Shown here: positions 26,685 to 45,995 of the stretch, one piece after another
How positions within the stretch are numbered: position 1 is the first letter of the stretch
Layout: each line of letters begins with the position of its first letter
Assembly: GCF_004402215.1 (NCBI RefSeq)
Contig: NZ_SOEZ01000010.1
Span: 13,699 to 59,693, forward strand
Origin: Cryobacterium tagatosivorans
Lineage (GTDB): Bacteria > Actinomycetota > Actinomycetes > Actinomycetales > Microbacteriaceae
DNA: 45,995 nucleotides
Direction of reading: 5' to 3'
Notes under the pieces: model-generated
What the model saw: only the letters and a program-made list of their open reading frames with translations
What the model was told of the DNA's origin: nothing
Databases searched by the model: none
Program-made: the position numbers and the translations under genes

Positions 26685-26727
26685 GCCCCGATTTTAGCCC
26701 GGGCCATGTTGCATCCGTGTGAACAAG

Positions 26728-30711: not shown

Positions 30712-31178
30712 TTTGTCAGCCTCACCCGATGACGCTTTGCTGTCCACCTGGTGTGCTGTTGCAACTTCTTGAACCGAATTCGTGGGCTGGGCTGTAGCTC
30801 CGTGGCAGCGTTGAAGCCTCCCAAGCTGGGAGAGTGCAAAACGATAGAGCGACGGCGAAACACATAGATGCGGTGCCAAGCGTCGCCAGTATGACGCACC
30901 GCCACGACCCACGCCCGCAGGCGCCCCGCGACGGTGTCGCGGACTACTACCTTGTGCGCAACTGACAATCACCCATCCGTCTGGACTTCGGTCCCAGTGC
31001 GGTCAGGACCGCGTCCCGGTCGCCTCGCTGTTGTCTGCGGGCTCCATTCTTGGGCGCGGCGTAGCGTAACGCAGCCCGGCAGGCCGGTCAGAGGAACCCT
31101 GAACCTGGCGCGGCGGCTGCTTCCCCACGGGAGGCTCCGTCAACCCGAAACCAGTTCCGATGCACTGCGCGATCCTCC
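30712..31178. other. Non-coding junction between core genome and island
   Basis: Nothing here looks like a functional gene: the open frames lack codon bias and ribosome sites. The stretch contains the tRNA-like fossil at 30791-30832 and a small hairpin CTCCCA/TGGGAG (30818-30832) that is part of that fossil. No integrase remnant could be recognised. Confidence 0.6.
30791..30832 (+). pseudogene. Degenerate tRNA-Gly-like sequence
   Basis: These 42 bases align without gaps to bases 30641-30682 of the intact tRNA-Gly, matching at 29 positions, including TGTAG, TGG-AG and the complete anticodon loop region TCCCAAGCTG. The 3' third (T arm, acceptor) is not preserved. It may be a fossil from recombination or integration at the tRNA gene, or an old tandem tRNA copy. 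Confidence 0.4.
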
Positions 31179-31433
31179 TTACGTGCTTCGAGTCGGATCT
31201 GCGGCAGAGGTCAGCTGTCGCACCCGCGTGGATTGCCGGTCGAGCCACGGTTCGGTGACTTCCGGGGCGAAGTCGCGGGCCTCCGTTTGGAAGCAGAGAT
31301 AGCGCAGGATCTGGTGGTATCGCGAAACGCCAATGCCGAAGGTGTCTCGGATCGCCTCGCGCTTGGATCCGCCGGCGCCTGGCGTCCACTTCATCTCGAA
31401 ATCGAGAGTCTTTCGGCGTCGTTCCGTGAACAT
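31179..31433 (-). CDS. DUF3263 domain-containing protein
   Basis: Encodes 84 residues. The segment LDFEMKWTPGAGGSKREAIR followed by DTFGIGVSRYHQIL matches the DUF3263 pattern (LDFE-W--GA-KE-AIR--FG-S-TRYYQ-L), a short helical, probably DNA-binding domain widespread in Actinobacteria. The start is ATG at 31433. It stands alone, in the low-GC side of the tRNA junction, convergent with nothing and 213 bp from the SDR gene. It may be a small regulator carried by the island or displaced core DNA. Confidence 0.72.
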   Translation of the reverse strand: MFTERRRKTLDFEMKWTPGAGGSKREAIRDTFGIGVSRYHQILRYLCFQTEARDFAPEVTEPWLDRQSTRVRQLTSAADPTRST

Positions 31434-31646
31434 GGACTCATTCTAAGAAGACGCCTGCCCTGCGACGTGACGGGTTGCGCTCTGCGTATCGTCGCGCCGT
31501 GATCCCGACAACTTCCGGTCCGCTTCACGCTTCACGCTTCGCTATTGCGCCCCACTAGCCCCTCTCGCTGGCAATGCGTTCGATTTCAAAGAGCATCGCC
31601 GCGTGCTACGTCAAGAGACGCCTGGGCCGCCGCCCTCGGCGATCCG

Positions 31647-32408
31647 TCAACGAACGAGGTATCCGCCGTCCACGGGGATGATCGCCCCGTTGATGTAATG
31701 AGCAGCTGCTGAGCACAAGAAGGTCACGGTTCCGGCGATGTCGTCGGCGTCGCCCCAGCGACCAGCGGGAATCCGATCCAGAATGCTCCGCCTACGTGCC
31801 TCGTCGTTCAAGAGGGCCTTATTGAGTTCGGTGGCGATGTATCCGGGTGCGACGGCGTTCACAGTGACACCTCGGTTTCCCCACTCATTTGCCAGCGCCT
31901 TCGTGAACTGAGCGATCGCGCCCTTTGACGCTGAATACGCGGCGACGTTCGTGCCGCCGACAAACGAATTGGCGGAGGCGATGTTGACAATTCGCCCGCT
32001 GCCCCGTGTGAGCATCTGCCGCCCCACTTGCTGGGTCACCTGCGCCACGGCTCGCAGATTGACGTTCAGCACGTCATCCCAGTCCCGGAGGGGGTACTTT
32101 TCAAACGGGTGGCGTATGACCATCCCCGCGTTGTTCACCAAGATGTCGATCTCTTCGTCTCGGAGCAGTTCCTCCATCCTGGATTCGATTGCCTCCGGAT
32201 CGGACAGGTCGACGGCCACGCTCCGGGCTATGTGGGAATGGACGTCGTCGGAACGCTGCAACCCGATGACTCGTGCGCCGCTCCTCGACAGGTCGAGAGC
32301 GATTGCTCGACCTATTCCGCGCGAAGCTCCCGTGACGAGCGCGGTTGCCGATTGTAGGTCGACATTCATCCTCCCGAAGCGTGACTCTTGGCCTTGCGCC
32401 GGACTCAT
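31647..32408 (-). CDS. SDR oxidoreductase, KduD/gluconate 5-dehydrogenase-like
   Basis: Encodes 253 residues if started at the ATG (32408) that overlaps the preceding stop (ATGA); a second ATG at 32369, directly after GGGAGG, would give a more typical SDR length. Motifs are TGASRGIG at 26-33, NNAG at 92-95, and catalytic Ser145, Tyr158 and Lys162. The closest family pattern is 2-keto-3-deoxy-gluconate 5-dehydrogenase or gluconate 5-dehydrogenase (ANSFVGG, PVDGGYLVR). It is the last gene of the ten-gene island operon and probably oxidises or reduces a sugar-acid hydroxyl. Confidence 0.82.
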   Translation of the reverse strand: MSPAQGQESRFGRMNVDLQSATALVTGASRGIGRAIALDLSRSGARVIGLQRSDDVHSHIARSVAVDLSDPEAIESRMEELLRDEEIDILVNNAGMVIRHPFEKYPLRDWDDVLNVNLRAVAQVTQQVGRQMLTRGSGRIVNIASANSFVGGTNVAAYSASKGAIAQFTKALANEWGNRGVTVNAVAPGYIATELNKALLNDEARRRSILDRIPAGRWGDADDIAGTVTFLCSAAAHYINGAIIPVDGGYLVR

Positions 32409-33667
32409 GGCTGGTGTTCCGCAAGAACGCTTGGCAAGGTGCGCGGTGTTCCTACCAGCTCGAGAAATCGATCCGCAACGGCATTGGCGAACTCGGCGCT
32501 GTTGATGTCGCGATCAATCGTTGTCAGGGGGATGGTAGCGGGGAGATGCCGTCGCAGCGCTTCAATCAGGGCATTGTCTGCCTTCTCGTTCGCGATGGGT
32601 CCGCCGGGGACGCCGATAAGGGAGAGCCCTTTGGTCGGTACCATCACGGCGGTAGGGGCCGTGGCGGGGGCGACGCATGCGGCAATCTGCCGTCCCAGTT
32701 CCTGCATTTCCGTCTCGTTGATTCGTACAAGTGTGGCGACGGCATTGTGGTGATAGAGCGCTCGGGAGCGGTATCGGTCCGGCACGGTGTCCATGGCACC
32801 TTGATTGAAGAAGTCGCAGGCTCCCGGCACCACGATCAATGGCACATTGTGCTTGACCGCAGCCGTCATCCGGTCAGGCCCTGTAGCGTGCACACCGCCA
32901 AAGAGGCTGTTGGCGACCTCCGAAAGGGTGAAGTCGATGACGGCCGTAATGACGCCGTCCCGCACGAAGTCGTCCATCGCCGGTCCGCCCACTCCATTGG
33001 CATGGAAGATAATTGGCTCGTAACCGGCGTCTTCAAGCCGTTTGGCGAGCACCATTGCCCCCGGGGTGGTCTGGCCCAGCATGGTGATTCCGACACAGGG
33101 CCGGTGACTGACAGGCGGCCGACCTGCCCAGGTGACCATGCCCATCACCGCGGCTGTCGCATTGTCGAACACGCTTCTGGCCACCGAATTCAGACCAAGA
33201 ATGTCGACCACGGAGTGCATAACCACGACATCGCTACTCCCCATGAACGGGCCGAATTCGCGCCTGCCGGACGCGCTCGGCGAGACGATGACCTTGGGGA
33301 CGCCCACGGGTAGGGCCTGCATCGCTGCGGCAGCCATCAGACCGCCTTCCGCGCCTCCGAGGCATAGGAGGCCGTCGATGTGGCCGGCTGCGTACAGGTC
33401 CTTGACCACCTGTCGGAGGCCCTCCTGCATAAGCGCAACTGCAGCACCTCGAGAGCCCGTATTTCGTACCTCCGCGAGCGAGTGACCCGACCCCTCGGCG
33501 ACGACGTCCCTCGAGACGTCGGCGAGTAACGTCGCGGTGCCCAGGATGCCTGAGTCGATCACGATCGTGCCCGCCCCCAACCCGCGCAGGCGATCTCGCA
33601 CATACCGAATCTCGTCGCTCTTTGTGTCGAGGGTCCCGATCAGGGCGATATTGGGCGTTTTCTCCAT
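32405..33667 (-). CDS. Tm-1-like ATP-binding domain protein (UPF0261 family)
   Basis: Encodes 420 residues, the family length. It has the N-terminal Tm-1 domain (IALIGTLDTKSDEIRYVRD, then LCLGGAEGG and PKVIVSPSASG) and the C-terminal half (GITMLGQTTPGAM, FHANGVGGPAMDDFV). The fold was named from the tomato virus-resistance protein Tm-1; bacterial members occur in catabolic operons and their reaction is poorly established. Overlap with the SDR gene (4 bp) and 15 bp from the DeoR gene show it belongs to the island operon. Cytosolic; ATP or another nucleotide may bind at the Gly-rich loop. Confidence 0.85.
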   Translation of the reverse strand: MEKTPNIALIGTLDTKSDEIRYVRDRLRGLGAGTIVIDSGILGTATLLADVSRDVVAEGSGHSLAEVRNTGSRGAAVALMQEGLRQVVKDLYAAGHIDGLLCLGGAEGGLMAAAAMQALPVGVPKVIVSPSASGRREFGPFMGSSDVVVMHSVVDILGLNSVARSVFDNATAAVMGMVTWAGRPPVSHRPCVGITMLGQTTPGAMVLAKRLEDAGYEPIIFHANGVGGPAMDDFVRDGVITAVIDFTLSEVANSLFGGVHATGPDRMTAAVKHNVPLIVVPGACDFFNQGAMDTVPDRYRSRALYHHNAVATLVRINETEMQELGRQIAACVAPATAPTAVMVPTKGLSLIGVPGGPIANEKADNALIEALRRHLPATIPLTTIDRDINSAEFANAVADRFLELVGTPRTLPSVLAEHQP

Positions 33668-33682
33668 TGAATGGTTCCTTGC

Positions 33683-34486
33683 CTAAGATTGCCGGCCGCG
33701 ACTAGGCGCGTTGCCGGGAGCTCGCACGAGTGGCAGACCGCCGTCGACATACTTCTTCTCTACGCTGCTGAGCATTTCCGCGTCAGTGATCACAAGATCC
33801 AGCTGACCAAGGGGTGCCATTGACAGGAGAGCGGGCGCATCGAACTTGGTGGAGTCGACCAGCGCGATCCGTCGCTCCGAGCGGGCGAAGACCGTTTTCG
33901 TGATCTCTGCGAGCTCCCTCTGAGTTGTCATGAGGCCACCGCTCACCGTCAGACCCGCTGCGGAGACAAATGCAGTGTCGAGGCTGAGCCCGCCCAGGAA
34001 CTCGGCCGTCCATAGTCCAGTGATTGCACGCAGCGACTGATCAACTTCGCCCGGTGTCACGATCACGCGGATGTACGGAGCGTGCAACATGAAGGCAATC
34101 GCTGGAGAGTTGGTGACTATCGTCAGGCTCCGGCTGGCGTCTTGTTCCAACTCAAGCGCCAGTTCAAGAACAGTGGTCGAGGCGTCGAAGAAGACCGTCG
34201 CGCCGTCGGGAATCTCGTCGAGGGCGCGCCGGGCGATGGCTCTCTTCTGCTCTATGACCTGCGAACGACGAAGGTTGAAGTCCGTCCTGATCTCGTGGTG
34301 GAGTCCGGAGAGACTTCGGGCGCCGCCGCGCACGCGTTCAAGAACGCCTTCCGTGACCAGGTAGTCGAGGTCTCGGTGAATCGTGACCGGGGCAACTCCA
34401 AACAACTCACTGAGCGAGTTCAGCTTCGCATACCCGTCGCGGTCGACGACCTCGCGGATGCTCGCTCGTCGTAGCGACGTATCCAT
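33683..34486 (-). CDS. DeoR-family transcriptional regulator
   Basis: Encodes 267 residues: an N-terminal DeoR helix-turn-helix (about 5-57: LNSLSELFGVAPVTIHRDL, then EGVLERVRGGA) and the C-terminal sugar-phosphate-isomerase-like sensor domain (VFFDASTTVLELA, then IALVDSTKF). This family usually represses sugar operons until a phosphorylated sugar binds. AGGAGC precedes the ATG by five bases. It is embedded inside the operon, with only nine bases to the preceding flavoprotein gene, so it is likely autoregulated. No sugar kinase gene accompanies it. Confidence 0.88.
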   Translation of the reverse strand: MDTSLRRASIREVVDRDGYAKLNSLSELFGVAPVTIHRDLDYLVTEGVLERVRGGARSLSGLHHEIRTDFNLRRSQVIEQKRAIARRALDEIPDGATVFFDASTTVLELALELEQDASRSLTIVTNSPAIAFMLHAPYIRVIVTPGEVDQSLRAITGLWTAEFLGGLSLDTAFVSAAGLTVSGGLMTTQRELAEITKTVFARSERRIALVDSTKFDAPALLSMAPLGQLDLVITDAEMLSSVEKKYVDGGLPLVRAPGNAPSRGRQS

Positions 34487-34495
34487 ATGCTGCTC

Positions 34496-36361
34496 CTAAA
34501 TCCCGATTCCGGTCCAAAAACCCGATTGTGTAGCAGCGTACAAGCGACCGCCCTTGGCACGTGCACCGACCACCAGAACCTCCGCGTCCGCCGGAATCTC
34601 GGCGAAGGGGGCACGAGAGTCCGCCGCCCAGTCAGGAGACGACAGCCGAATGCCGGAATCCCCCGGATCGGTCGAAACGAAGCGAACGCCGAGTCGTTCC
34701 AGGATGCCGACGGTGTGCGCCGCAAGAATTGGATTCATGTCGTAACCGACGCCACCTTCGTTCGTGATGACGACCGTTTCGCGCCCCTGCTGGGCAGCGA
34801 AGGCTGCGGCGTTCAGCGCTATCTCATTTGACCCGAGGATCGTGACCCGTCCTGGGGGGAGCTCGCCGGAACGCAACGCGTGCATTGCGTCGATTGTGCC
34901 TTCTGGGGCAGCAGGCGCATACCCCCCGGTAGCGACGACGACGACATCCGCTCCCTCTGCAGATGTGCTGAAGTCGAATGGTGCGTTTACCTGAACGCGC
35001 ACGCCAACATGTTCCAGCTCCTTTTCCATGAATGTCACGTACGCTTCCATCTCGCGTCGTTTGTAATCGACTGCGGCTGCCGTCAGCACCTGGCCTCCGA
35101 TCCGGGCTGATGCTTCGACCAGGCGCACGTCGTGACCGCGCAGCGCAGCCGCGCGGGCCGCCTCGAAGCCGGCTGGACCACCGCCGACTACGAGTACCCT
35201 CTTGCTCTTGGCCTGTGGAGTCAGCCCCTGCGCCGCTTCTCGTTCGTAACCGAGTTCTGGGTTCATTACGCAATGGACGCGCCAGCCGCGGAAGAGGAAT
35301 CCGCCCACACACTCGTTGCAGCCGATGCACCGTCTCACACGGCCCGACTCGCCGTTCTTGATCTTGAACACGAGGTTCGCGTCGGTGAGTTGGGTACGCG
35401 CAAGCGCCACGAAGTCAAGAGCACCGCTTTCAATTGCCCTCGCTGAGGTATCCAGCGCCCAGCCGAGACGGCTAACTCCGATGACCGGCTTGGAGACCAC
35501 TGCCTTGACCCGCGCCGCCAGGGGCAACAGCTCAGCGGGTTCGCGACCCTGCATCATGAACACGGAATCCATGCTTTCGTAGGTCGCGGCCGTCACATTG
35601 AAAACGTCAACGTATGGTTCGATGAGCTTGCAGAAGGCGATGCCTTCCTCGGCCTCCATGCCGCCCTCAACTCGTTCCTCAAGGCTGATGCGGTAGCTCA
35701 GCGGAAAGTCCGGACCCACCTCGTCCCGGATGGCGCGCACGACTTCGAGGGGGAAACGTGCCCGGTTGTCAAAAGACCCGCCGTACTCGTCCGTGCGGTG
35801 GTTGGACTGTGGCGAGAGGAACTGGGTCAACAGGTATCCGTGGGAACCGTGAATGTCAATCAGATCAAATCCGGCAGCCACCGATCGGCGCGCGGCATCC
35901 CGGAATTGCTGAACGATCTGTTTGATCTCGCTGACTTCCAGTGCTCGAGGTTCGTCGCCGATCGCCGAGGAAGTGATAGCGGAAGGCGCAACCGGACCTA
36001 ACCCGTCGACGGTGTTGCTGCGGGGATTCTGGCGGCCGGCGTGGTGGAGCTGCGTCGCGATGAGGACGCCCTCGCGATGGATGGCCTCGGTGAGATCGCT
36101 GAGACCAGCAATGAAAAGGTCATCGTCGATGCGCACGGGGTTGCCCGCGGCACGCCCCACCTTCCAGTCGATGGCCGTGTTCTCCAGGATGATGAGCGAG
36201 ACACCTCCCTTTGCCCTGGCGACCAGGTAGTCGGTGAGCTTTTCGGACACTTCGCCGAATTCTGTAGCGAATTTGGTATGCATGGGTGATTGGACGAAGC
36301 GATTCTTCAGTGTCAAGCGCCCGATCTGGGCCGGGGTATACAGAACATCCAGGGTGCTCAT
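34496..36361 (-). CDS. Old-yellow-enzyme/Fe-S flavoprotein, trimethylamine-dehydrogenase-like
   Basis: Encodes 621 residues. Residues 1-370 form an FMN-binding OYE barrel (LKNRFVQSPM, HGSHGYLLTQFLSP, DEYGGSFDNRARF). A [4Fe-4S] motif follows with Cys345, Cys348, Cys351 and Cys364; the C-x2-C-x2-C-x12-C spacing is that of trimethylamine dehydrogenase rather than of 2,4-dienoyl-CoA reductase. The C-terminal part is a nucleotide-binding domain (VLVVGGGPAGFEAA, then TILGSNEIALNAA). The cysteine that carries covalent FMN in trimethylamine dehydrogenase is not seen in QSPMHTK, so FMN should be non-covalent. It probably removes electrons or hydride from an organic substrate in the cytosol; substrate unknown. 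Confidence 0.85.
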   Translation of the reverse strand: MSTLDVLYTPAQIGRLTLKNRFVQSPMHTKFATEFGEVSEKLTDYLVARAKGGVSLIILENTAIDWKVGRAAGNPVRIDDDLFIAGLSDLTEAIHREGVLIATQLHHAGRQNPRSNTVDGLGPVAPSAITSSAIGDEPRALEVSEIKQIVQQFRDAARRSVAAGFDLIDIHGSHGYLLTQFLSPQSNHRTDEYGGSFDNRARFPLEVVRAIRDEVGPDFPLSYRISLEERVEGGMEAEEGIAFCKLIEPYVDVFNVTAATYESMDSVFMMQGREPAELLPLAARVKAVVSKPVIGVSRLGWALDTSARAIESGALDFVALARTQLTDANLVFKIKNGESGRVRRCIGCNECVGGFLFRGWRVHCVMNPELGYEREAAQGLTPQAKSKRVLVVGGGPAGFEAARAAALRGHDVRLVEASARIGGQVLTAAAVDYKRREMEAYVTFMEKELEHVGVRVQVNAPFDFSTSAEGADVVVVATGGYAPAAPEGTIDAMHALRSGELPPGRVTILGSNEIALNAAAFAAQQGRETVVITNEGGVGYDMNPILAAHTVGILERLGVRFVSTDPGDSGIRLSSPDWAADSRAPFAEIPADAEVLVVGARAKGGRLYAATQSGFWTGIGI

Positions 36362-36399
36362 TGCATGTGCTCCTCTTTGAGTGCGATGGGTTGGAAGTT

Positions 36400-37533
36400 T
36401 CAGTCGTTCTGGACAGGTGTCCAGAGCCCTGACTTGGCCGATTCAATGACCGCCTCTTCGACGAGCGTTGACTTGAGGCCCTCCCGGAACGTGGTCTGCG
36501 GACGCTCAGTCGTTCCAGCTACCGCGGATAGGAAATCCGCGATCTGGATGACCTTGGTATCGGCGTATCCGATTTGGTACCCGGAAATGGGCCAGAAGAA
36601 GTCCCCGGACGGGTGAGCGGGACCAGTGAGGATTGTGCGGTAGCCCTGCCGGTCGGCACTGTCGCGACCGTCGTAGTACTGCAGTTCCCCCATGTGTTCC
36701 CAGTTGAAGGAGAGGCTCCCGGTGGAACCGATGACCTCGAATCCTGCCGAGGTCTTCTTGCCGGGTGCGGCCCAGGAGCTCTCGATGTAGCCAGTTGCGC
36801 CGCTGGCGAATTTGAGCATGAACGCTGTGGCGTCGTCAACGTCCACGGGCCCGGTGCCCGAGCCGCTCAAGAGCGGCCGTTCAGTGACGAATTGGTGCTG
36901 GATCCCTTGTACTGCAGTGATGTCGCCAGCGAGGAAGCGGCTGAAGTCGATGGCATGACTGCCGATGTCTCCGAGAGCACCAGAGCCGGCCTGGTCCTTC
37001 TTGAAGCGCCAGACGAGCGGGACGCTTGGATCGTTGAAGAATTCTCCGAGCCAGAAGGAGCGGACACTGCGGATCTCTCCAATGGCCCCTTCGTCGATTA
37101 GCTTCTTTGCGAGCTGAACGGCGGGGGCCAGACGCCAATTGAATCCCACCTGATTGACGACGCCTGCTGCTTCCGCTGCGTCGGCCATTTCGCGGGCAAG
37201 GTTTGCGGTCAGAGCCAGGGGCTTCTCGCAGATCACGTGTTTGCCGTTGGCGATCGCTGCCATGACAACTTCGTAATGCATCACATTGGGCACAAGAATG
37301 TCAATCACGTCAATTTCGGGGTCTTCCACGGCTTCGCGCCAGCTCGTGCCGGCTCTGTTGAAGCCGAAGCGCTTCTGCGACTCTGCCGCAAGTTCGTCGT
37401 TGATTTCGACGATGAGATCGCGCACTGGATAGTACGGGGCAGGCCAGACATACATGGGGTAGGTGGCGAGAGCGATGCTATGGGCCTTGCCCATGAAACC
37501 TCCGCCGATGACTGCAAACTTGAGATCGCGCAC
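36400..37533 (-). CDS. Gfo/Idh/MocA family oxidoreductase
   Basis: Encodes 377 residues beginning with GTG at 37533. The Rossmann loop AVIGGGFMGKAH lies at 7-18, the family EKP motif at 103-105 (VICEKPLAL), and the catalytic-site pair Asp189 and His193 in GDIGSHAIDF. These NAD(P)-dependent enzymes oxidise a ring hydroxyl of sugars, cyclitols or sugar derivatives, often to the 3-keto form. It lies 34 bp after the importer permease and 38 bp before the flavoprotein gene. It is a candidate for the first step after uptake. Confidence 0.88.
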   Translation of the reverse strand: MRDLKFAVIGGGFMGKAHSIALATYPMYVWPAPYYPVRDLIVEINDELAAESQKRFGFNRAGTSWREAVEDPEIDVIDILVPNVMHYEVVMAAIANGKHVICEKPLALTANLAREMADAAEAAGVVNQVGFNWRLAPAVQLAKKLIDEGAIGEIRSVRSFWLGEFFNDPSVPLVWRFKKDQAGSGALGDIGSHAIDFSRFLAGDITAVQGIQHQFVTERPLLSGSGTGPVDVDDATAFMLKFASGATGYIESSWAAPGKKTSAGFEVIGSTGSLSFNWEHMGELQYYDGRDSADRQGYRTILTGPAHPSGDFFWPISGYQIGYADTKVIQIADFLSAVAGTTERPQTTFREGLKSTLVEEAVIESAKSGLWTPVQND

Positions 37534-37567
37534 GACTATGTCCTGTCTCTTATGGTGGGTGTTGGAT

Positions 37568-38794
37568 TTATCGGGAGGAGCGACGCAGTATGTAGGCGTC
37601 GACGCCGAGGGCGGCGATGAGAATCAGGCCCTTGATGATGGCTTGCGAAAACGAAGAGATGTTGAGGATGCTCATGCCGTTGTTGATCGTGGTCAACAGC
37701 ACGGCACCCATTACGGCGCCCGCCACTTTGCCGACGCCTCCGCGCAGTGAGACACCGCCGATGACGGCAGCCGCGATCGCGTCCAGTTCCAGGAATTCAC
37801 CCGCGCCCGGCGTAGACGACCCCAGACGCGCGGTCAGAAGAACCCCTGCAACACCGTACAACGCGCCCATTATGATGAAACCGATGAAGACTGTGCGCTT
37901 GACGTTGACGCCGGAGTAGATCGCGGCCTCACGATTGGCCCCAAGCAGGTACGCACCGCGACCATACGTTGTCCTGAGCATAAGGACCGACAACGCGATC
38001 ACGATAATGACCACCCAGACGAGCGCCATAGGGATTCCGAGGAATCCACCGACGATCCAAGCAAGGATGCCCAGGGGCACGACGAGCAGTGCGATCTCGC
38101 CGATCGTCCTGCCCATCGGCACGGGCGGGCGTGCGAGGATGCCTTCCCGCGCCTCCATGCGACGCTTGGCGGACTTGCGGCGATCTCGGATGACAATGAA
38201 TCCAACCCCGAACGCGAGCGCGATCGCAATGATTACGTACGAGATGCCGGGTGGGATGTAACTTTCGCTTAGCGCTGTGAACTCGGGCGACACCGGGCCG
38301 ATCGTGGCTGCGTTTGTCCAGAGAAGGCCGATGCCTCGGAAGGCCAGCAGCCCGGCGAGGGTCGCGATGAATGAGGGTATGCCGAGGAACACAACCCAAG
38401 CTCCTTGGACCGCGCCAAGAAGAACGCCCGTGCCCAGCGCTGCGAGTACCACCACGATGAGAGGGAGATTGCCCTGCGTTGCGAGTTCAGCGGAGACGAC
38501 TCCGCATAGGAAGACTGCGCTGCCAATGGAGAGGTCGATTTCTGACATGGTCATGAGGATGGCAACCCCGGCTGCTACGACGGCGAGAATGGCGCTCTGT
38601 CGCAACATGAGAGAGAGATTGCGGGGGGTGAGGAACAAACCGTTGGACTGGAGGTGAAAGAGGACCGCGAGTACGACGAAGACGCCGACGAAAATGAGTG
38701 TGCGCCTGCTCATGACTGCCCCCAGCTCCATCCGCGCTTGCTTGCGAAGGGAGTTGTTCGACTCCGCCGTGGACGGGAGCGTAGTTTGCGACAT
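37568..38794 (-). CDS. Sugar ABC transporter permease (XylH type)
   Basis: Encodes 408 residues from the ATG at 38794, with AGGAGG six bases upstream and overlapping the ATPase stop. It is longer than most CUT2 permeases because of an insert of about 70 residues in the middle (IVIRDRRKSAKRRMEAREG, then further helices), as seen in XylH-type members. Family motifs are TMSEIDLSIGSAVFL and LLGANREAAIYSGVNV. About ten membrane segments. It forms the channel of the island importer. Confidence 0.88.
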   Translation of the reverse strand: MSQTTLPSTAESNNSLRKQARMELGAVMSRRTLIFVGVFVVLAVLFHLQSNGLFLTPRNLSLMLRQSAILAVVAAGVAILMTMSEIDLSIGSAVFLCGVVSAELATQGNLPLIVVVLAALGTGVLLGAVQGAWVVFLGIPSFIATLAGLLAFRGIGLLWTNAATIGPVSPEFTALSESYIPPGISYVIIAIALAFGVGFIVIRDRRKSAKRRMEAREGILARPPVPMGRTIGEIALLVVPLGILAWIVGGFLGIPMALVWVVIIVIALSVLMLRTTYGRGAYLLGANREAAIYSGVNVKRTVFIGFIIMGALYGVAGVLLTARLGSSTPGAGEFLELDAIAAAVIGGVSLRGGVGKVAGAVMGAVLLTTINNGMSILNISSFSQAIIKGLILIAALGVDAYILRRSSR

Positions 38795-40371
38795 CACTGT
38801 CCTCCTGTTGCTGCTGTCATGAGCGCGTGCCGAGTGGGGCGCCCCTGGATTGTGGCCGTGATTCGACCCTTGTACATGACGAGTGTCCGATCACTCATTC
38901 TCATGATCTCGTCCAGATCGCTGGAGACGAGCAGCACCGCGCATCCTGCCCGTGCGAGCTCCTCAATTTGGAGGTAGATCTCCTCCCGGGCGCCGACGTC
39001 AACGCCGGCCGTCGGCTCGTCGAGGAGCAGGACGTGCGGATTCGTCGCTAGCCACCTTCCTAGCAAGACCTTCTGCTGGTTCCCTCCGCTAAGCGTCTCG
39101 ATGCTCTGGCTCGCGGACCGTGCCCGCACGTCCAGGGACTTGATGATCCCGAGCGCGCGATCCAGGTCCTTCGAGGAATCGAAGAAGCCATAGCGGGAGA
39201 CCTGGCTGGGCGCGGCCGCGTCGATGTTCGACATCAGCGAGTGCCCCGAGAAGATGCCGGTTTGTTTGCGGTCCTCCGTCAGCATCGCAACGCGGCGTCG
39301 GATTGCTGCCCTGGGCGTACTCGGACGGTAAGGGGCGCCATCAACCTCGATGGTCCCTTCGAAGCCGCCCGGCCAAGTTCCGAAGAGCGTGCGCAGGATC
39401 TCGGTGCGGCCAGCTCCCACCAGGCCAAACAGACCGACGATCTCACCCGCTCTGACATCGAAGGAGACTTTGTCAACACGGATGCGGCTCTTGTCGACTG
39501 GATCTGCAACGCTCAGGGCTGCCACGTTGAGGGCAACCTTGTCGCCGATGTCGCGGGGCGCCCGATCCACGTTCTCGTCCTGCCCTCGCCCGATCATTGC
39601 CTGCACGATCTCGCCGCGAGGGGCATTTCGTTCGGGGAAGAACGCCACGGACTCGCCATTGCGCATGACGAGGACTTCATCGCAGACCTGTGCGATGTCG
39701 TCCAGTCGATGGGAGATGAAGAGTACTCCGATTCCCTTGTTCCTCAACTTGGCGACGTGGGCGAACAGGGACTGGGCTTCCCCATCAGAGAGAGATGCAG
39801 TCGGCTCATCCAGAATGAGTACGCGGGCTTCCTGAGAGAGAGCGCCCGCGATGAGGATGAGCCGCTGCTCGGACGGCGACAGAATCGATGCCGGCAGCCA
39901 CGGGTCGAGTTCGAGCCCAAAGAAGGACAGCCAGGTGTGCGCTCGTAACTCCAGTGTCTCCGAATCAACGAACGCTCCCCGGCTGGGCAGAGCGCCGGCG
40001 AACATGTTCTCTGCAATCGAGAGCTCCGGTGCGATGTGCAACTCCTGCGGCACGAGGACCACGCCGGCAGCCCGCGCCTCCTGAACATTTCGGAATCTCA
40101 CCTTCTCTCCTCTGAGGTAAACGTCCCCTTCGTAGCTGCCTGCGGGGTACACGCCTCCCAGGATCTTCATGAGGGTGGACTTGCCGGCGCCATTTTCACC
40201 GATGATCCCGAGCGCGCGACCGATGCGGAGGCTGAAGGAGACGTTGTGCAACGCGATTGCCCCGCCGAAGGACTTGCCGGCGTTCTCCACGCGCAGCAGA
40301 TCGGGTTCAGACGGCGCCCCGCCGAGTGGCGCCGACGTACCGGCGCCACTCGGTGTTTCGATCTTCGACAT
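38794..40371 (-). CDS. Sugar ABC transporter ATP-binding protein (two ABC domains)
   Basis: Encodes 525 residues. Domain 1 has Walker A GENGAGKS at 58-65 and LILDEPTASL. Domain 2 has GLVGAGRTEIL and the signature LSGGNQQK with LLLDEPTAGVDVG. It is the XylG/RbsA class that drives uptake of pentoses, hexoses or related compounds. A Gly/Ala/Pro-rich leader of about 25 residues precedes the first domain. It follows the binding-protein gene by 24 bp and overlaps the permease start. Confidence 0.9.
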   Translation of the reverse strand: MSKIETPSGAGTSAPLGGAPSEPDLLRVENAGKSFGGAIALHNVSFSLRIGRALGIIGENGAGKSTLMKILGGVYPAGSYEGDVYLRGEKVRFRNVQEARAAGVVLVPQELHIAPELSIAENMFAGALPSRGAFVDSETLELRAHTWLSFFGLELDPWLPASILSPSEQRLILIAGALSQEARVLILDEPTASLSDGEAQSLFAHVAKLRNKGIGVLFISHRLDDIAQVCDEVLVMRNGESVAFFPERNAPRGEIVQAMIGRGQDENVDRAPRDIGDKVALNVAALSVADPVDKSRIRVDKVSFDVRAGEIVGLFGLVGAGRTEILRTLFGTWPGGFEGTIEVDGAPYRPSTPRAAIRRRVAMLTEDRKQTGIFSGHSLMSNIDAAAPSQVSRYGFFDSSKDLDRALGIIKSLDVRARSASQSIETLSGGNQQKVLLGRWLATNPHVLLLDEPTAGVDVGAREEIYLQIEELARAGCAVLLVSSDLDEIMRMSDRTLVMYKGRITATIQGRPTRHALMTAATGGQ

Positions 40372-40395
40372 TGTTCTACCTGTGTCTGCTTGCGT

Positions 40396-41508
40396 TCAGC
40401 TCGTGGGGCACTGGGAAGGGTCGGCGAAGACCTCTTCCGGCGTGACCCATCCCTCGGGGGCAATTTTTGTCACAAAGTCACAGAGATTCTCCTTTGTGAC
40501 GGCCACAACGGGTGCCACGCGAGCCGGAATGGGTGCATCGGAGCCGTTGTCAACGGTGGTCTCCGGCTTGATTTTCTCTCCCTTGGCCAGCTTGACGGCT
40601 ACGTCGACAGCGATTTTGCCTTGCTCGTCAATCTGGGTCCAGACCGACATGGTCTGCAGGCCCTGGTCGATGAGCTTCAGGTTCGCCGCGTCCGCGTCTA
40701 GGCCGGATACAAAGACCTTCCCACCCAGGCCGCGGGCTTTCAGCGCCTGCACGACCGAGGTCGCCATGCCGTCGTTTGCCGTGAGGAATGCTGAAACGTC
40801 GTCGTTGTTTGAACTCAGGATGTTCTCAGCCTCCGCTAGTGCCGTTGTCGGATCCCAGTTCTTGGTGAACTGGTCGTAGACGACCGTGGGGGACTTGCCC
40901 TTGAGGGTTGCGACATGGGCCGTGTGGATGGCTTGTGCCACGTCATTGGCCGCATCGCCCTCGACGAGCGCATAGTTCCCGTCGGCCGCGAACTTCAAAG
41001 CCGCCTCCGCTTGCAGGACACCGACCTGTGGGTTGTCCCGGATCACGAAGTAGTCCACCGGAACGCCCTGGATGCCGATGTCGTATGACACGACTGGCAC
41101 ACCTTCCGCCTTTGCCTGTGTCGCGGAGGCTGCTGCGGCCTTGTCGTCCACAGGCGTCACGATGAGCGCGTCCACGCCCTGGCTGAGCAGGTTCTCGATC
41201 TGGCTCGACTGGGTGCTGGCATCGTCGTTGGCCCACTGGACGATGAGCTTGACCCCGAGCTTGTCGGCTTCCTTCTGCATGGCGTCGACGTCGAACGCCC
41301 ATCGGCGCTGCTGCTGGGTCTTCATTGCGACGCCGATCACGATCTTCTCGCCATCGCCTCCAGAATCGGGGGATGCCGAATTGGTGTTGCTGCAGCCGGC
41401 TAGGGCGACCAGCGAAAGGCTGGCGGCCATGGCCGCAGCGGCGATCAGGCTGCGGCGTTTGCGTGGGCCGCTGAAGGTGGCGGGGCGCTTGATGAAATGT
41501 GAATTCAC
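40396..41508 (-). CDS. Sugar ABC transporter substrate-binding lipoprotein
   Basis: Encodes 370 residues from the GTG at 41508, chosen because AAGGAG lies eight bases upstream and the product then starts with a proper signal peptide (KRRSLIAAAAMAAS) and lipobox LAGC, lipidated Cys39. The frame continues upstream to 41583 but that part is not signal-like. The type I binding fold is clear (IVIGVAMKTQQQRRWAFDV, DALIVTPVDD, GLDADAANLKL). It resembles xylose/rhizopine-type binding proteins; the ligand cannot be determined. A 143-bp gap before it may hold an internal promoter. Confidence 0.87.
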   Translation of the reverse strand: MNSHFIKRPATFSGPRKRRSLIAAAAMAASLSLVALAGCSNTNSASPDSGGDGEKIVIGVAMKTQQQRRWAFDVDAMQKEADKLGVKLIVQWANDDASTQSSQIENLLSQGVDALIVTPVDDKAAAASATQAKAEGVPVVSYDIGIQGVPVDYFVIRDNPQVGVLQAEAALKFAADGNYALVEGDAANDVAQAIHTAHVATLKGKSPTVVYDQFTKNWDPTTALAEAENILSSNNDDVSAFLTANDGMATSVVQALKARGLGGKVFVSGLDADAANLKLIDQGLQTMSVWTQIDEQGKIAVDVAVKLAKGEKIKPETTVDNGSDAPIPARVAPVVAVTKENLCDFVTKIAPEGWVTPEEVFADPSQCPTS

Positions 41509-41651
41509 TGCTGTATCTCCTTGGTCTCGGCAACTCTGGCGAAACGGGTGGACGGTGACGACCAAAGCGGTCGGCGCATCCATCCTTGGGGACCCAACGC
41601 CGCGGTTGCGTCGTTGAGCCGATCAATCTGTGCGGGATGTTGGTGTCTTCT

Positions 41652-42569
41652 TTATAGAACGCGGTCGATGAACTCGCGGTGGTGGACGGTGACGGGCACT
41701 TTCTGAAGGTCAAGGATGCCTCGGGCGACGTGCTCGCTCAGACGGCGGAAAGCTTCGTGGCCCTTCTCTGCGGTGGCTCGCATCGGGTTGCCGATAATCC
41801 CGTTGTCGACAAACTCGTGGTGATCCATCGGGAAACTGAAGTACTGATAGCCCTCGAACTCGGCATCCGGCATTCCGTCTTCCTTGCTGAATGACTTCGG
41901 CAGGAAAGCCGGAATGTGCGCACGAGTGTCGACAGCACGCTCCATCCGCACCAAGTCTGGGTTCCACGCCAGGTCTTGGGACGTCTCGAGCTCGGAGGAA
42001 TGCCAGCCCGGCGTCTCCTCCGGTGGGTTCTCCAGGATGCCGGTGAGGATCCCCTCGTAGCGCTCCATGTATGGCTTAACGAAGGAGATGAGCGCACCCG
42101 TGTCGTAGCGCAGCTTGCGCAGGATGGGATCGACAACCTTGATGTTTGAGCCGTGACCGTTGATGAAGATGATACGGCTGAAACCGTGGTGGATGAGGCT
42201 GCGGGCGATGTCGTTCATGAGGGCGAGCAAGGTGGACGAACGGACGGTGATGGTGCCGCGCCCCTCCCCGACCCCGTACATGTGCTGGGGCGAGTAGCCG
42301 GTCCAGATCGGCGGCGTGTGCAGCACACCGATCTCTTCCGAGATTCGCTCGGAGATCTCGACCGCGGTGATGGTGTCCGTGTACAGCGGGAGATGCGGCC
42401 CATGCTGCTCGGTGCTCGCCATGGGGACGAGCACCGTGTCCTTCGTCTTCAAGTATTCGGCGATGTCCACGTAGGACAGGTGGGCGAGGTTCCAGGAGCG
42501 AAACTTGCTCCGGAACTCGTCGTCGCCTTCGGTAAGCCGGTTGATCTGGCGTTCAGGTCTGCTGTTCAT
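41652..42569 (-). CDS. Creatininase family protein (creatinine amidohydrolase-like)
   Basis: Encodes 305 residues. Metal-site motifs of the creatininase fold are present: TEQHGPHLPLYTD (Glu54, His56, Asp65), NGHGSN near 139, and HSSELETS with a metal-binding Glu. The family opens cyclic or linear amides (creatinine) and includes MftE-type peptidases and dehydratase-like members, so creatinine itself need not be the substrate. The product extends about 45 residues beyond the usual length, mainly at the N-terminus. It lies between the FAD oxidase and the importer in the island operon. Confidence 0.85.
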   Translation of the reverse strand: MNSRPERQINRLTEGDDEFRSKFRSWNLAHLSYVDIAEYLKTKDTVLVPMASTEQHGPHLPLYTDTITAVEISERISEEIGVLHTPPIWTGYSPQHMYGVGEGRGTITVRSSTLLALMNDIARSLIHHGFSRIIFINGHGSNIKVVDPILRKLRYDTGALISFVKPYMERYEGILTGILENPPEETPGWHSSELETSQDLAWNPDLVRMERAVDTRAHIPAFLPKSFSKEDGMPDAEFEGYQYFSFPMDHHEFVDNGIIGNPMRATAEKGHEAFRRLSEHVARGILDLQKVPVTVHHREFIDRVL

Positions 42570-42627
42570 TTTGTTGCGCCTCCTTGCGCGGTGGGGGTCA
42601 GGGTGGTTAACAGTCTCGGAATTCCGC

Positions 42628-44118
42628 TCAAGAACGATTCCGTGGAGGCCCGAATCCGAGCTTGCCCGGATTCATGATTCCGTCCGGATCCCACGCGTCC
42701 TTGATGCCCCGCATCAGGTCGAAGCCGGTCCCGTATTGAGGGCGCATGAAGCGCCCAAGTTTGAGGCCGACGCCGTGGTGTTCGTTGATGGTTCCACCGT
42801 TGGCAAGGGATGCGTTGACGCCGGCGTCCCACAATTCATCGTGCAGAGCCATGGCCTCCGCCGGATCTTCGGGTGGGTTGTCCACGTAGAACCGGTCGTA
42901 GACCATTCCTCCCCACGGGAACCAGTGCGAGAAGTGAGCGGTGTAGCGGGCTCCTCTTGATCCGAACTTGGACTCGATCGCTTCCTTCTTGGCCCGATAA
43001 ATCTTCGGAAGATCGGCGAAACGTGCGACGGTATCAAAGGTGCCGTACATGAGTGGAGGAGCTGGGAGTTTGCCTTTGGCGTAGGGTTCGTATTTTCCTT
43101 CCCACCAGATAGCGCCTACCTCGGGCCCAAGGGAATGCCCTCCTGCCCGCTCAGCCTGCTCGGTGATGGCGCGCATCTCGTAGTCGACGAGTGATCGATC
43201 GCCGTCGCACATGATGACCATGAGAGTGCCAGTGAAGGGAGTTCCGACCCATTCCTGAAGCTTCCGGCTGTCCGCCTCGTCATAGAGACGTATGACGGCC
43301 GGGCGGAGGCGCCGGGTCATGATCAGTCGGGCCGCCTCGATCCCCGCGAAGATGTCGGGAAAGCTGAAGGACAGGAAGTCGCGTACCTCCGGAAGCGGAT
43401 CCAAGCGGAAGGAGAGCTTCGTGATGATTCCGAGCGTCCCCTCAGAGCCGACCAGCGTCTGCAGCAGATCAGGACCGGCCGCATGGCTTGGCACGCGAAG
43501 GGTTTGAATGGTCTTCCCGGGGGGAACGACGGCCTCAACCTGAAGCACCTGGTCTTCGGCCTTGCCGTATTTTGTCGAAACGACACCTGACCCGCGGGCG
43601 GCCACGTAACCGCCCAAAGTCGCGCCGAGGTGATATGAACCGGGGTAATGGGCGAGTGTCAGGCCCTTCTCATTGAGTTTCTCTTCGAGCAGAGGCCCTT
43701 CGAGTCCGGCCTCGGCCGTCACAACGAGGCTTTCCTCGTCGATCTCAATGATCTTGTTGAGGCGGGTGAGGTCTACGGCGATGCCGCCATACGGAGCAAA
43801 TGTTCCGCCCTGAGTTCCCGATCCTCCTCCTCGGGGAATGACAGGGATTTTGTAGTCAGAGGCGATTTCGACAATGCGCTCCACATCAGCGGTTGATCCC
43901 GGCCGGACTACGAAGTCCGCTGCGGGCACATCAAGACCTTTGTACTGCAGGTACTTGCTCACCCAGGACCAGTCGGCGGCTTTCGCCTGCAGGTCTGCAG
44001 GATCGCGACTCACGAACTCTCGACCCAAAACGCCGGTCAGTTCCCGCTCAATTTGACCGTGAAGATATGAGGATCCGCTCACCCCGTCGGAAGCTTCTTT
44101 GCCCACGCTTTTCTCCAT
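42628..44118 (-). CDS. FAD-linked oxidase (VAO/PCMH family, glycolate-oxidase/alkyl-DHAP-synthase-like)
   Basis: Encodes 496 residues. The FAD_binding_4 loop PRGGGSGTQGG lies at 96-106, with GATLGGYVAARGSG and VGSEGTLGIITKL later in the domain. The C-terminal FAD-oxidase region ends with INEHHGVGLKLGRF, the family's histidine-containing active-site motif, and DPDGIMNPGK. Such enzymes oxidise a 2-hydroxy acid, D-lactate, phenol or ether-lipid precursor with FAD. It is the first gene of the minus-strand island operon, behind an AT-rich promoter region. Confidence 0.87.
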   Translation of the reverse strand: MEKSVGKEASDGVSGSSYLHGQIERELTGVLGREFVSRDPADLQAKAADWSWVSKYLQYKGLDVPAADFVVRPGSTADVERIVEIASDYKIPVIPRGGGSGTQGGTFAPYGGIAVDLTRLNKIIEIDEESLVVTAEAGLEGPLLEEKLNEKGLTLAHYPGSYHLGATLGGYVAARGSGVVSTKYGKAEDQVLQVEAVVPPGKTIQTLRVPSHAAGPDLLQTLVGSEGTLGIITKLSFRLDPLPEVRDFLSFSFPDIFAGIEAARLIMTRRLRPAVIRLYDEADSRKLQEWVGTPFTGTLMVIMCDGDRSLVDYEMRAITEQAERAGGHSLGPEVGAIWWEGKYEPYAKGKLPAPPLMYGTFDTVARFADLPKIYRAKKEAIESKFGSRGARYTAHFSHWFPWGGMVYDRFYVDNPPEDPAEAMALHDELWDAGVNASLANGGTINEHHGVGLKLGRFMRPQYGTGFDLMRGIKDAWDPDGIMNPGKLGFGPPRNRS

Positions 44119-44224
44119 CTACTAAAGCTGCAGGGCAATTTCTCGGCCCTGAGCAAATTCATCTCGACGTGGCACCGGCATCCCAAGTGGGCCTGCCTGA
44201 CCGTCTCGAACTCGACTAACAACA

Positions 44225-44253
44225 TTTATAACAAAGTGAAGAGAAAATGAAAA
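44225..44253 (-). promoter_or_regulatory. Candidate promoter of the ten-gene island operon
   Basis: On the minus strand TTTTCA (44253-44248) and TATAAA (44230-44225) are separated by 17 bases, a fair match to -35/-10 elements. They lie about 105 bases before the FAD-oxidase ATG, in the most AT-rich part of the window. The leader is long enough for regulator sites. Confidence 0.45.
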
Positions 44254-44290
44254 GAGGAGAAAGAAAAAACTTTAAAGCTTTCTCTATTTG

Positions 44291-44503
44291 TCATTTCGAG
44301 GCCGTGGCGAGCTGCGAGATGTCTGCCTGGGGGGTCGACGGCGGTTGTGGTTGCAGAATGAATGCAGTTGCGGAGACGTTTGCCTCCGAGCCGGACGTTT
44401 GCCGGAGTATCACCTCGACGCCCGGGAAGTTGGGATCGCCGTCGAGCCCGCACGCTGAAGTGCCCGAGACGTCGTCGGTGCAAACGACATCGCTCTTGTG
44501 ATT
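44291..44503 (-). pseudogene. Beheaded gene fragment, unknown function
   Basis: On the minus strand, 70 codons run from just after a stop (44506-44504) to TGA at 44293-44291 with strong G/C bias at third positions, unlike a random frame. The reading includes CTDDVSGTSACGLDGDPNFP and ends near QLATASK. No start codon with a ribosome site exists near its 5' end. It looks like the C-terminal remnant of a protein, perhaps exported (two Cys, Ser/Thr-rich), cut off during island rearrangement. No family recognised. Confidence 0.35.
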
Positions 44504-44828
44504 TCACCGCCTAGCCCATAGCGAGGTGAAACGAGCTGCCGAAGTCCACTCATATTTCAGCAAGACAAGCCCAGCCACTCTTCTTGCCTTCTCTCGAGGG
44601 ACCATCCGTTGGCATCGGCGAGTTGGAAAGTGGTGGGACCACGGCGAGGATCGCCCCGTGCTCGAATTGGAAGCCCGGGTCCAGGTAGGCATTGCCACGC
44701 CTCACGCCGATTACCTTGCATGCTGTTCGTTTCGCAGTCGAGTAGTCCCGATTGCGTGGTCCGGCGCTATCTTGATCGCCCGTGTAAACGTCAACCGAAA
44801 ATAGGGCCATTTCTGCCAGGCGAGTTCT

Positions 44829-44865: not shown

Positions 44866-44869
44866 GAAG

Positions 44870-45928: not shown

Positions 45929-45995
45929 GGGTAGGAATCGTGGGTCTGCAGCCCATTGTTCTCAGATCGTGGCAGGCCTCGCTCGAGTACTTCCT

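Follow-up and report, generated by a model that had tools for sequence, protein, structure and literature searches.

Ten minus-strand genes in the window (the whole 45,995-nucleotide stretch of Cryobacterium tagatosivorans DNA analysed here) place a sugar-type importer beside redox enzymes, a creatininase-fold hydrolase (CRN) and a protein of the UPF0261 family. This combination raises the question of whether the genes form one catabolic unit and, if so, which type of compound it degrades and by which steps.

Gene layout, composition and recurrence

All ten ORFs were found closely spaced on the minus strand between 31647 and 44118, and each of the ten proteins scored above the curated cut-off of its named Pfam family (Table 1), confirming the coordinates, strand and families of the original prediction of an operon with short gaps or overlaps. 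Measured between the longest ORFs, the nine junctions are -4, 15, 9, 38, 34, -4, 24, 68 and 58 bp. Two gene pairs overlap, and 8 of 9 junctions measure 58 bp or less. The longest ORF of the binding protein starts at 41583; the GTG at 41508, located 8 bases after an AAGGAG, is probably the right start, and its use gives the 143-bp gap to the CRN gene that had been reported. No sigma-70-like promoter or terminator was detected in 44100-44870 or 30700-31700; spacing and conservation, the two lines of evidence here, suggest co-transcription of the ten genes.

Table 1. Genes of the locus, with window coordinates
Feature	Coordinates	Strand	Evidence
FAD-linked oxidase, 496 aa	42628..44118	-	FAD_binding_4 + FAD-oxidase_C
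CRN, creatininase-fold metal-dependent hydrolase, 305 aa, predicted ring-opening	41652..42569	-	PF02633 200.4 bits
CUT2 substrate-binding protein, XylF-like, lipobox LAGC	40396..41508	-	Peripla_BP_4 195.4 bits
CUT2 two-domain ATPase	38794..40371	-	two ABC_tran stretches
CUT2 permease	37568..38797	-	BPD_transp_2 105.7 bits
Gfo/Idh/MocA dehydrogenase, levoglucosan-dehydrogenase-like	36400..37533	-	NF052479 437.6 bits
OYE-like flavoprotein, predicted ene-reductase	34496..36361	-	IHGSHGY + CIGCNEC...C motifs
DeoR-family regulator	33683..34486	-	HTH_DeoR + DeoRC
UPF0261 (Tm-1-like), CRN-linked clade	32405..33667	-	PF06792 177.2 bits, PF23189 252.0 bits
KduD-like short-chain dehydrogenase	31647..32408	-	TIGR01832 261.5 bits

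A Gfo/Idh of the window type (E <= 1e-130) was found in 3 of 398 genomes of the family, all among the 15 CRN-positive ones and clustered with CRN each time; therefore, the ten genes are a real unit, with a recurrence beyond chance. Clusters of the set occur in three genera. Herbiconiux moechotypicola (L033/L080) carries it in the same order without the importer in between, and G764 (L090, L099), a 1.4-Mb genome from another genus of the family, has the importer in a rearranged order, with CRN and the FAD gene on the strand opposite to Gfo/Idh and no short-chain dehydrogenase found in the fetched stretch. The proposed neighbourhood search bore out the clustering of the gene set in relatives. 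That the genes are separate transcription units, together on the island by chance, is extremely improbable; the varying gene order and the split strands of G764 would fit this explanation and the promoter and terminator scan gave no evidence either way, but the overlaps, the short junctions and the clustering in three genera all speak against it. Spacing and recurrence make the predicted single catabolic operon around a CUT2 importer likely.

The G+C content is 0.613 across the operon, compared with 0.700 (1-14000) and 0.702 (19000-28000) elsewhere in the window, and a UPF0261 of the window type is missing from 36 genomes of the same genus (best identity, 42%); both findings support the island status of the locus. 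A second low-G+C region lies at about 15-20 kb. A tRNA-Gly repeat considered as island boundary (attachment site) was rejected, as the last 20 bases and longer ends of the tRNA are single-copy in the window and absent from L034 (one strand of L034 checked). Window-type UPF0261 was also found in none of 30 genomes from the order of G325 (E <= 1e-110), a set without a positive control.

Predicted roles of the importer and enzymes

The importer is complete, as predicted, with a binding protein, a protein with two ATPase domains and a BPD_transp_2 permease. NCBIfam cut-offs of the XylF, GguAB and ChvE models were missed (xylF, 219.6 of 389.55 bits; GguB, 287 of 450; GguA, 455.5 of 810; ChvE, 149.4 of 460); the best model for the ATPase was the xylose importer ATPase (501 bits; cut-off, 699), and the binding protein is 58% identical to its counterpart in the G764 cluster.

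For the Gfo/Idh protein, levoglucosan dehydrogenase (NF052479) was the best among the models listed, at 437.6 bits and below the cut-off of 650. The protein scored 378 bits against the levoglucosan dehydrogenase in PDB entry 6a3f, 212.9 bits against the scyllo-inositol/L-glucose dehydrogenase 5ya8, which we take to be the enzyme of Paracoccus 43P, and at most 91 bits against DgpA chains. It retains the EKP and GDIxxHxID motifs, and oxidation of a ring hydroxyl, the role originally assigned to it, is supported as a likely step.

His-x-x-His-x-Tyr is the flavin-site pattern of ene-reductases, as in YqjM, and a Tyr-x-x-His pair is an active-site feature of trimethylamine and histamine dehydrogenases. 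The OYE-like protein has the fold and 4Fe-4S cysteines common to the latter enzymes. Its motif IHGSHGY, with H171, H174 and Y176 invariant among four sequences, follows the ene-reductase pattern; in the alignment with histamine dehydrogenases 3k30 and 6de6, which read Y-G-A-H at H171-x-x-H174, the Tyr-x-x-His pair is missing. These residues predict an ene-reductase. For the FAD-linked oxidase, the nearest solved relative was alkyl-DHAP synthase, followed by D-lactate dehydrogenase and glycolate oxidase; its HxSH and HHGVG motifs match alkyl-DHAP synthase no worse than they do a dehydrogenase, and its score against GlcD of glycolate oxidase (TIGR00387) was 171.1 bits (cut-off, 567.9). The short-chain dehydrogenase also remained below the KduD cut-off (338.85).

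CRN retains the metal site (E54, H56, D65, H139 and H-x-S-E-L-E), and all its scores are below NCBIfam cut-offs (creatininase TIGR04448, 128.3 bits against 235; IolN NF041098, 108.2 against 245; MftE, 96.9 against 172). It reads NGHGSN where creatininase has NGHYEN, with Ser in place of Glu122, a residue to which we ascribe a functional role in creatininase; neither score nor motif is that of a creatininase. By analogy, CRN is predicted to be a hydrolase that opens the ring of an oxidised substrate. The original proposal of an amine-, amide- or ether-substituted sugar or cyclitol, in which the amide would be cut by CRN and the amine by the trimethylamine-dehydrogenase-like enzyme, is very unlikely. 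It draws on the family names, on the retained metal site and on creatininase being the top NCBIfam model for CRN, but the missing Glu122 equivalent and the IHGSHGY motif leave both assigned roles weak, and no aminotransferase or deaminase is found among the ten genes. Two likely annotations, creatinine amidohydrolase and trimethylamine dehydrogenase-like, are thereby questioned; in actinobacterial genomes they could lead the prediction of pathways astray.

A variant of levoglucosan degradation would have Gfo/Idh form a 3-keto-1,6-anhydrosugar, elimination give an enone and OYE reduction replace LgdB2-type hydration, with the other enzymes feeding central metabolism. The levoglucosan dehydrogenase-like Gfo/Idh, the ene-reductase-type motif and the variable gene sets downstream of LgdA (described in the accessible part of PMC10066097) are consistent with this variant, which is nevertheless unlikely; the Gfo/Idh score is well under its cut-off, no AP_endonuc_2 match that would indicate an isomerase-fold LgdB1/LgdB2-type enzyme, such as the eliminase, was found among the ten proteins, and creatininase and UPF0261 go unmentioned in the main text of PMC10066097.

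Cluster types and the UPF0261 protein

Clusters with CRN fall into types with different enzyme kits. Type A (window, L080 and L090) has the Gfo/Idh, ene-reductase and CUT2 kit; the OYE orthologue (62-100%) occurs in the same 3 of 16 examined CRN genomes as the window-type Gfo/Idh, and upstream regions of type A genes share 10-mers and no longer operator motif. Type B keeps CRN and the FAD gene, and two isomerase-fold enzymes and a LIV importer replace the ene-reductase and CUT2. The isomerase SIE1 is present in 12 of the 16 CRN genomes and in none of the 3 with window-type Gfo/Idh. The prediction that the window lacks an isomerase is correct, yet in 11 of the 12 type B clusters fetched, UPF0261 and the FAD gene flank the gene of an enzyme resembling IolO and psicose epimerase. 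The FAD gene is clustered with CRN in 14 of 15 type A and B loci, including the window, and in the exception (L087) a contig end truncates the locus. Type C has a dehydrogenase and, between CRN and UPF0261, a class II aldolase (that of L093 scored 111.4 bits against 3-oxo-tetronate 4-phosphate decarboxylase; cut-off, 250); Pfam matches revealed no aldolase in the window, as originally noted.

Compared with the window, CRN is 79-93% identical in type B loci and 82% in L090, and the FAD protein 65-78% and 70%, whereas the corresponding values are 39-45% and 61% for UPF0261 and 37-41% and 74% for Gfo/Idh. The case for module exchange depends on L090, because the FAD protein of L080 (81%) is closer to the window than any type B FAD protein. 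Such natural enzyme exchanges suggest an order of steps.

Both UPF0261 domains (PF06792 and PF23189) pass the gathering cut-offs of 27, and the AlphaFold model (pLDDT, 85.5) matches Tm-1 and Saro_1862 in predicted fold. Members of the family are common among bacteria, and the related plant protein Tm-1 confers antiviral resistance. UPF0261 adjoins a PEP_hydrolase-type TIM barrel in 16 of 20 stretches; in the window it is grouped with CRN instead. No PEP_hydrolase/TBST gene was found in the genome of the window (assembly 97.8% complete) by a search that was positive in G588, G325 and Haloferax volcanii, and 14 of the 16 CRN genomes, including that of the window, gave no PEP_hydrolase hit. In the tree, the 5 rows of CRN-linked UPF0261 proteins from types A and B group as one clade (support, 100/98). 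It is possible, if rather doubtful, that CRN and its own UPF0261 clade are a new module that replaces the UPF0261-TIM-barrel pair and cleaves or activates an oxidised ring compound, with upstream kits (Gfo/Idh joined either to ene-reductase and CUT2 or to two isomerase-fold enzymes and a LIV importer) plugging into a CRN-FAD core. If true, the catabolic route would be one not yet described, and the family of Tm-1 would gain a sugar-side role. An apparent CRN-UPF0261 fusion (P0202, 652 aa) was rejected; its CRN homology ends at residue 181, followed by a frame-shift-like stretch before the UPF0261 start, and an assembly error affecting two neighbouring genes is the preferred reading.

The solved bacterial structure 9mpy (Saro_1862 according to its title) has acetovanillone bound. 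A glycoside whose aglycone is aromatic or an enone, its sugar oxidised at C3 by Gfo/Idh, its aglycone attacked by the FAD or OYE enzyme and an aryl ketone handled by UPF0261, would agree with this ligand and with the relatedness of DgpA-type C-glycoside dehydrogenases to Gfo/Idh. Such a substrate is quite unlikely, as DgpA chains score far below levoglucosan dehydrogenase, the closest likeness of the importer is to monosaccharide importers, the ten genes include no eliminase of the DgpB/C-like or isomerase-fold kind, and an identity of about 32% to 9mpy is too low for ligand transfer.

Acetovanillone catabolism in N. aromaticivorans begins with MarK, a single-component kinase (accessible part of PMC13101465, crediting Hall et al. 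2025), and HpeHI is a two-component kinase of the PEP-synthase/rifampin-phosphotransferase type (accessible part of PMC12167813). A kinase role for UPF0261 was not adopted; MarK and Saro_1862 might be one protein, but, given the type of HpeHI, MarK may well be another. No settled chemistry for UPF0261 was found in the open-licence literature, with nothing on the family in the accessible parts of PMC12607616, PMC12997858, PMC13406360 and PMC9618137; the operon can therefore not be said to have no kinase, as had been predicted. Among the 50 structural matches listed for UPF0261 there was no DUF1537 fold, which neither shows nor excludes a resemblance. The operon offers a compact conserved setting for UPF0261, with a screenable binding protein and CRN as constant neighbour.

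A candidate route and its closest known systems

The inositol route of Thermotoga maritima runs in the order IolG-IolM-IolN-IolO. We tentatively favour, at somewhat less than even chances, the reading that the conserved set imports a cyclic polyol or anhydro/keto-sugar and oxidises a ring hydroxyl, after which CRN opens the ring hydrolytically in the manner of this route. The substrate would enter through the CUT2 transporter, and Gfo/Idh, judging from its family, would form a ring ketone. The ene-reductase-type flavoprotein could reduce a C=C bond conjugated to the ketone, for example after loss of a substituent, and the FAD enzyme may act beside the ketone to give an activated dicarbonyl, or oxidise a 2-hydroxyacid. 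CRN, like IolN, might then hydrolyse the C-C bond of a beta-dicarbonyl, UPF0261 would have a putative role in activating or cleaving the open-chain product, and the KduD-like dehydrogenase could adjust a keto acid for central metabolism. We infer that the FAD and CRN steps are the shared core and that the Gfo/Idh, ene-reductase and UPF0261 steps are variant-specific.

No enzyme of the operon reaches the cut-off of a named-function model (levoglucosan dehydrogenase, IolN, creatininase, KduD or GlcD), and orthology thus fixes none of the steps. With the IolG, IolM, IolN and IolO models (TIGR04380, NF041097, NF041098 and NF041099), Iol-like relatives were found across cluster types: Gfo/Idh (IolG, 121.7 bits; cut-off, 355), CRN (IolN), SIE1 of type B (IolO, 139.6; cut-off, 300) and the type C dehydrogenase (IolM, 203.9; cut-off, 450). 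These likenesses are not specific, since CRN scores higher as creatininase, SIE1 about equally as psicose epimerase (137.9) and the type C enzyme higher as threonine dehydrogenase (209.7). Moreover, CRN may not perform C-C cleavage, given that a class II aldolase separates it from UPF0261 in type C.

The open-licence literature yielded no described pathway with the same gene set, in agreement with the original prediction, and no description of the CRN-UPF0261 set. Threonate/erythronate-type acid-sugar pathways consist of a dehydrogenase, an isomerase, a DUF1537 kinase and a class II aldolase; type C resembles them in grouping CRN, the aldolase, UPF0261 and a dehydrogenase, whereas the window has neither an aldolase nor a DUF1537 protein. 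The UPF0261-TBST pair, fused in plant Tm-1 (accessible part of PMC5028733), has the same Pfam families and fold as the window's UPF0261, but the neighbour here is CRN. The L-glucose route of Paracoccus 43P has in its dehydrogenase (taken to be 5ya8) a Gfo/Idh relative. That of Luteolibacter LG18 uses an IolO-like C-4 epimerase, and creatininase is unmentioned for either route in the accessible part of PMC12632266. The levoglucosan pathway LgdA-LgdB1-LgdB2-LgdC is similar in its LgdA and adjoining ABC importer (accessible part of PMC10066097), whereas it includes no CRN, UPF0261, OYE or FAD enzyme. The Thermotoga inositol route differs in that all four Iol models stay below cut-off and the window has the FAD oxidase, the OYE-type enzyme and UPF0261 rather than an IolM- or IolO-like gene, but it shares the combination of a Gfo/Idh dehydrogenase with a creatininase-fold hydrolase, to which type B adds an IolO-like isomerase and type C a dehydrogenase resembling IolM.

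Layout and composition of the operon

The operon consists of ten open reading frames (ORFs), separated by junctions of -4, 15, 9, 38, 34, -4, 24, 68 and 58 bp. The original prediction had named the ten gene families, and these names agree with the Pfam assignments; the 143-bp gap that it reported was reproduced, in place of the 68-bp junction, once the binding protein was started at a GTG codon at 41508, which has AAGGAG upstream. The G+C content of the operon is 0.613 versus 0.700 for positions 1-14000 and 0.702 for positions 19000-28000 of the window. A second stretch of lower G+C content (about 0.63-0.65), which contains another permease ORF, lies at 15000-20000. The low-G+C stretch has a tRNA-Gly(CCC) at its left edge, and 150 bp after this tRNA is a 39-nt stretch that is 72% like it, had no ARAGORN call and is perhaps a tRNA remnant. 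On the other side, transposase frames (HTH_38, and rve slightly under the cut-off) in two overlapping ORFs are read here as an IS30-like element. The window ends, within this element, at the end of its 59693-base contig, and the operon is flanked by a mobile element there.

Features of the window, with positions in nucleotides
Feature	Position	Strand	Basis
BPD_transp_2 permease ORF	16317-18857		
tRNA-Gly(CCC)	30638-30711		
39-nt tRNA-like stretch	30790-30828		
SDR	one of ten ORFs, 31647-44118	minus	Pfam
UPF0261 (Tm-1-like)	one of ten ORFs, 31647-44118	minus	Pfam
DeoR	one of ten ORFs, 31647-44118	minus	Pfam
Oxidored_FMN + pyridine-nucleotide domain (OYE)	one of ten ORFs, 31647-44118	minus	Pfam
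Gfo/Idh/MocA	one of ten ORFs, 31647-44118	minus	Pfam
CUT2 permease	one of ten ORFs, 31647-44118	minus	Pfam
Two-domain ATPase of CUT2 importer	one of ten ORFs, 31647-44118	minus	Pfam
CUT2 binding protein	one of ten ORFs, 31647-44118	minus	Pfam
Creatininase (CRN)	one of ten ORFs, 31647-44118	minus	Pfam
FAD_binding_4/FAD-oxidase_C (FAD enzyme)	one of ten ORFs, 31647-44118	minus	Pfam
Transposase frames	44864-45995	plus	

Recurrence of the unit and cluster types

Clustered relatives in two other genomes, and the confinement of the levoglucosan-dehydrogenase-like (LgdA-like) Gfo/Idh enzyme of the window's type to CRN-positive genomes, bear out the proposal that the ten genes form a genuine unit. A single pattern-based scan that used the Gfo/Idh as query on GTDB species genomes returned one relative (82%), in Herbiconiux moechotypicola, where the FAD enzyme, CRN, Gfo/Idh, OYE, DeoR, UPF0261 and SDR genes stand in the window's order and the importer is absent from between them. 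In G764, a 1.4-Mb genome from another genus of the family, the binding protein, ATPase, permease, Gfo/Idh, OYE, DeoR and UPF0261 genes share one strand; the FAD enzyme, CRN and GntR genes lie on the opposite strand, pointing towards them, and an LldD-like gene lies past the FAD enzyme gene. The SDR was not found in the stretch fetched from this genome. Across 398 family genomes, CRN (E <= 1e-40) was found in 15, with 82-100% identity in 14 and 48% in one, and the window-type Gfo/Idh (E <= 1e-130) in three, all within these 15. Random draw would place both non-window Gfo/Idh genomes among the 14 remaining CRN genomes with p ~0.001, a rough guide given that the genomes are related.

Type A comprises the window, the single H. 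moechotypicola genome (L033/L080) and the G764 locus (L090). Type B comprises 12 loci (L078, L079, L081-L089 and L039) from 11 family genomes and G325, in which absent genes may fall beyond the fetched stretch; GntR, CRN and a LIV-type binding protein are present in 12/12, the FAD enzyme and an isomerase-fold enzyme, SIE1, in 11/12 (both absences are in L087, which is ended by a contig end), an LgdA-like Gfo/Idh in 9/12 and a further isomerase-fold enzyme, SIE2, in 8/12. L039 also carries LutB- and LutC-like genes. Type C (L051, L091, L092 and L093) has a CRN (46-48% identical), a class II aldolase, UPF0261 and a zinc dehydrogenase, and at a Thermus plasmid locus (L061) a truncated UPF0261 adjoins CRN. 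A gene for an LldD-like FMN 2-hydroxyacid dehydrogenase is found in six of the 15 type A and B stretches (L079, L081, L085, L088, L089 and L090), hinting, together with the LutB- and LutC-like genes, at a 2-hydroxyacid intermediate.

Proposed exchange of modules and the partner of UPF0261

Among the 16 genomes examined, OYE orthologues (62-100%) were found only in the three type A genomes, with relatives at 35% in two others. SIE1 was found in 12 of the 16 (ten at 84-100%, one at 63% and a weak match at 33%); the three type A genomes are among those without it, as is G489, where a contig end ends the cluster. Identities to the window's proteins, given for 11 of the 12 type B loci (eight of them with Gfo/Idh), are 79-93% in type B versus 82% in L090 for CRN, 65-78% versus 70% for the FAD enzyme, 39-45% versus 61% for UPF0261 and 37-41% versus 74% for Gfo/Idh. 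The respective values for L080 are 90, 81, 68 and 82%; its CRN is about as close to the window's as the best type B CRNs (91-93%), and its FAD enzyme is closer than every type B one. Judged by these identities, CRN is clearly independent of the A/B split, as is the FAD enzyme in the case of L090, and Gfo/Idh and UPF0261 track it. We infer that CRN and, less firmly, the FAD enzyme work on a common kind of intermediate.

Among 20 stretches fetched after UPF0261 searches, which are a selection of the matches, the usual partner, a PEP_hydrolase-type TIM barrel, adjoins UPF0261 in 16, CRN is in the cluster in two and neither is present in two. A 2016 study (PMC5028733) describes this partner and UPF0261 as co-evolving, with UPF0261 also present in 491 of 504 bacterial genomes that have the partner. 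A search of the 16 CRN genomes found PEP_hydrolase in two (G588 and G325) and not in the window's genome. A tree of 19 UPF0261 proteins groups the five rows of types A (three) and B (two) in one clade, with support 100/98; the type C row sits on a long branch with an unsure placement, and the CRN label taken as a whole requires two changes. Contig C214 of G325 carries a second UPF0261 cluster (L055) with a LIV importer, an LgdA-like Gfo/Idh, an isomerase-fold protein, a xylose isomerase (above the cut-off), UPF0261 and PEP_hydrolase; because of this gene content, PEP_hydrolase-linked UPF0261 can occur in sugar clusters too. In a distant actinobacterium (L053, 1054-5122), UPF0261 has PEP_hydrolase on one side and, on the other, an OYE-type protein (41% to that of the window).

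Conserved residues, candidate route and known systems

In ten CRN relatives, E54, H56, D65, H139 and H190-x-S-E-L-E are all kept, and the motif reads NGHGSN (types A and B) or SHHGSN (type C) versus NGHYEN in creatininase. The window's OYE has H171-G-S-H174-G-Y176 and C345-x2-C348-x2-C351...C364; across four sequences C345, C348 and C364 do not vary, and the third cysteine differs in the L053 relative. In the FAD enzyme, H395-x-S-H398, Y407 and H447-H448-G449 are invariant in seven sequences and presumably resemble residues of alkyl-DHAP synthase; the best PDB matches are alkyl-DHAP synthases (175.3 bits). Compared with E. coli XylF at positions that we take to touch xylose, the binding protein keeps an R-W pair, a D, N-D and a D, and has D-R changed to D-I, D-N-N to N-D-V and a K to T. 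Since these residues are changed, and likewise in G764's protein, the ligand is probably not xylose.

The favoured but tentative reading, which we hold at somewhat below even, is that a ring compound would be oxidized first and its ring then opened hydrolytically by CRN, acting as a putative C-C hydrolase by analogy with IolN, the creatininase-fold hydrolase of the Thermotoga inositol route. The analysis establishes which genes are present, that the set recurs, its exclusivity and its motifs. The importer, dehydrogenase and ene-reductase roles are predicted, the steps would presumably follow in this order, and UPF0261 may have a role in the route. A precedent from another family is dihydrophloroglucinol cyclohydrolase, a 'cyclase'-family enzyme that performs a metal-dependent retro-Claisen ring opening and is related to an amide hydrolase, isatin hydrolase (PMC10470551).

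No description of the creatininase-UPF0261 set was found in an open-licence library of papers, whose coverage leaves subscription journals mostly outside. Relatives of CRN (2161 at E <= 1e-60) and of UPF0261 (at least 1890 at E <= 1e-100, among 7995 scored candidates sharing most words) are common. We rate the operon as one of a known kind, a sugar or cyclitol catabolic operon, within which a module could turn out to be new.
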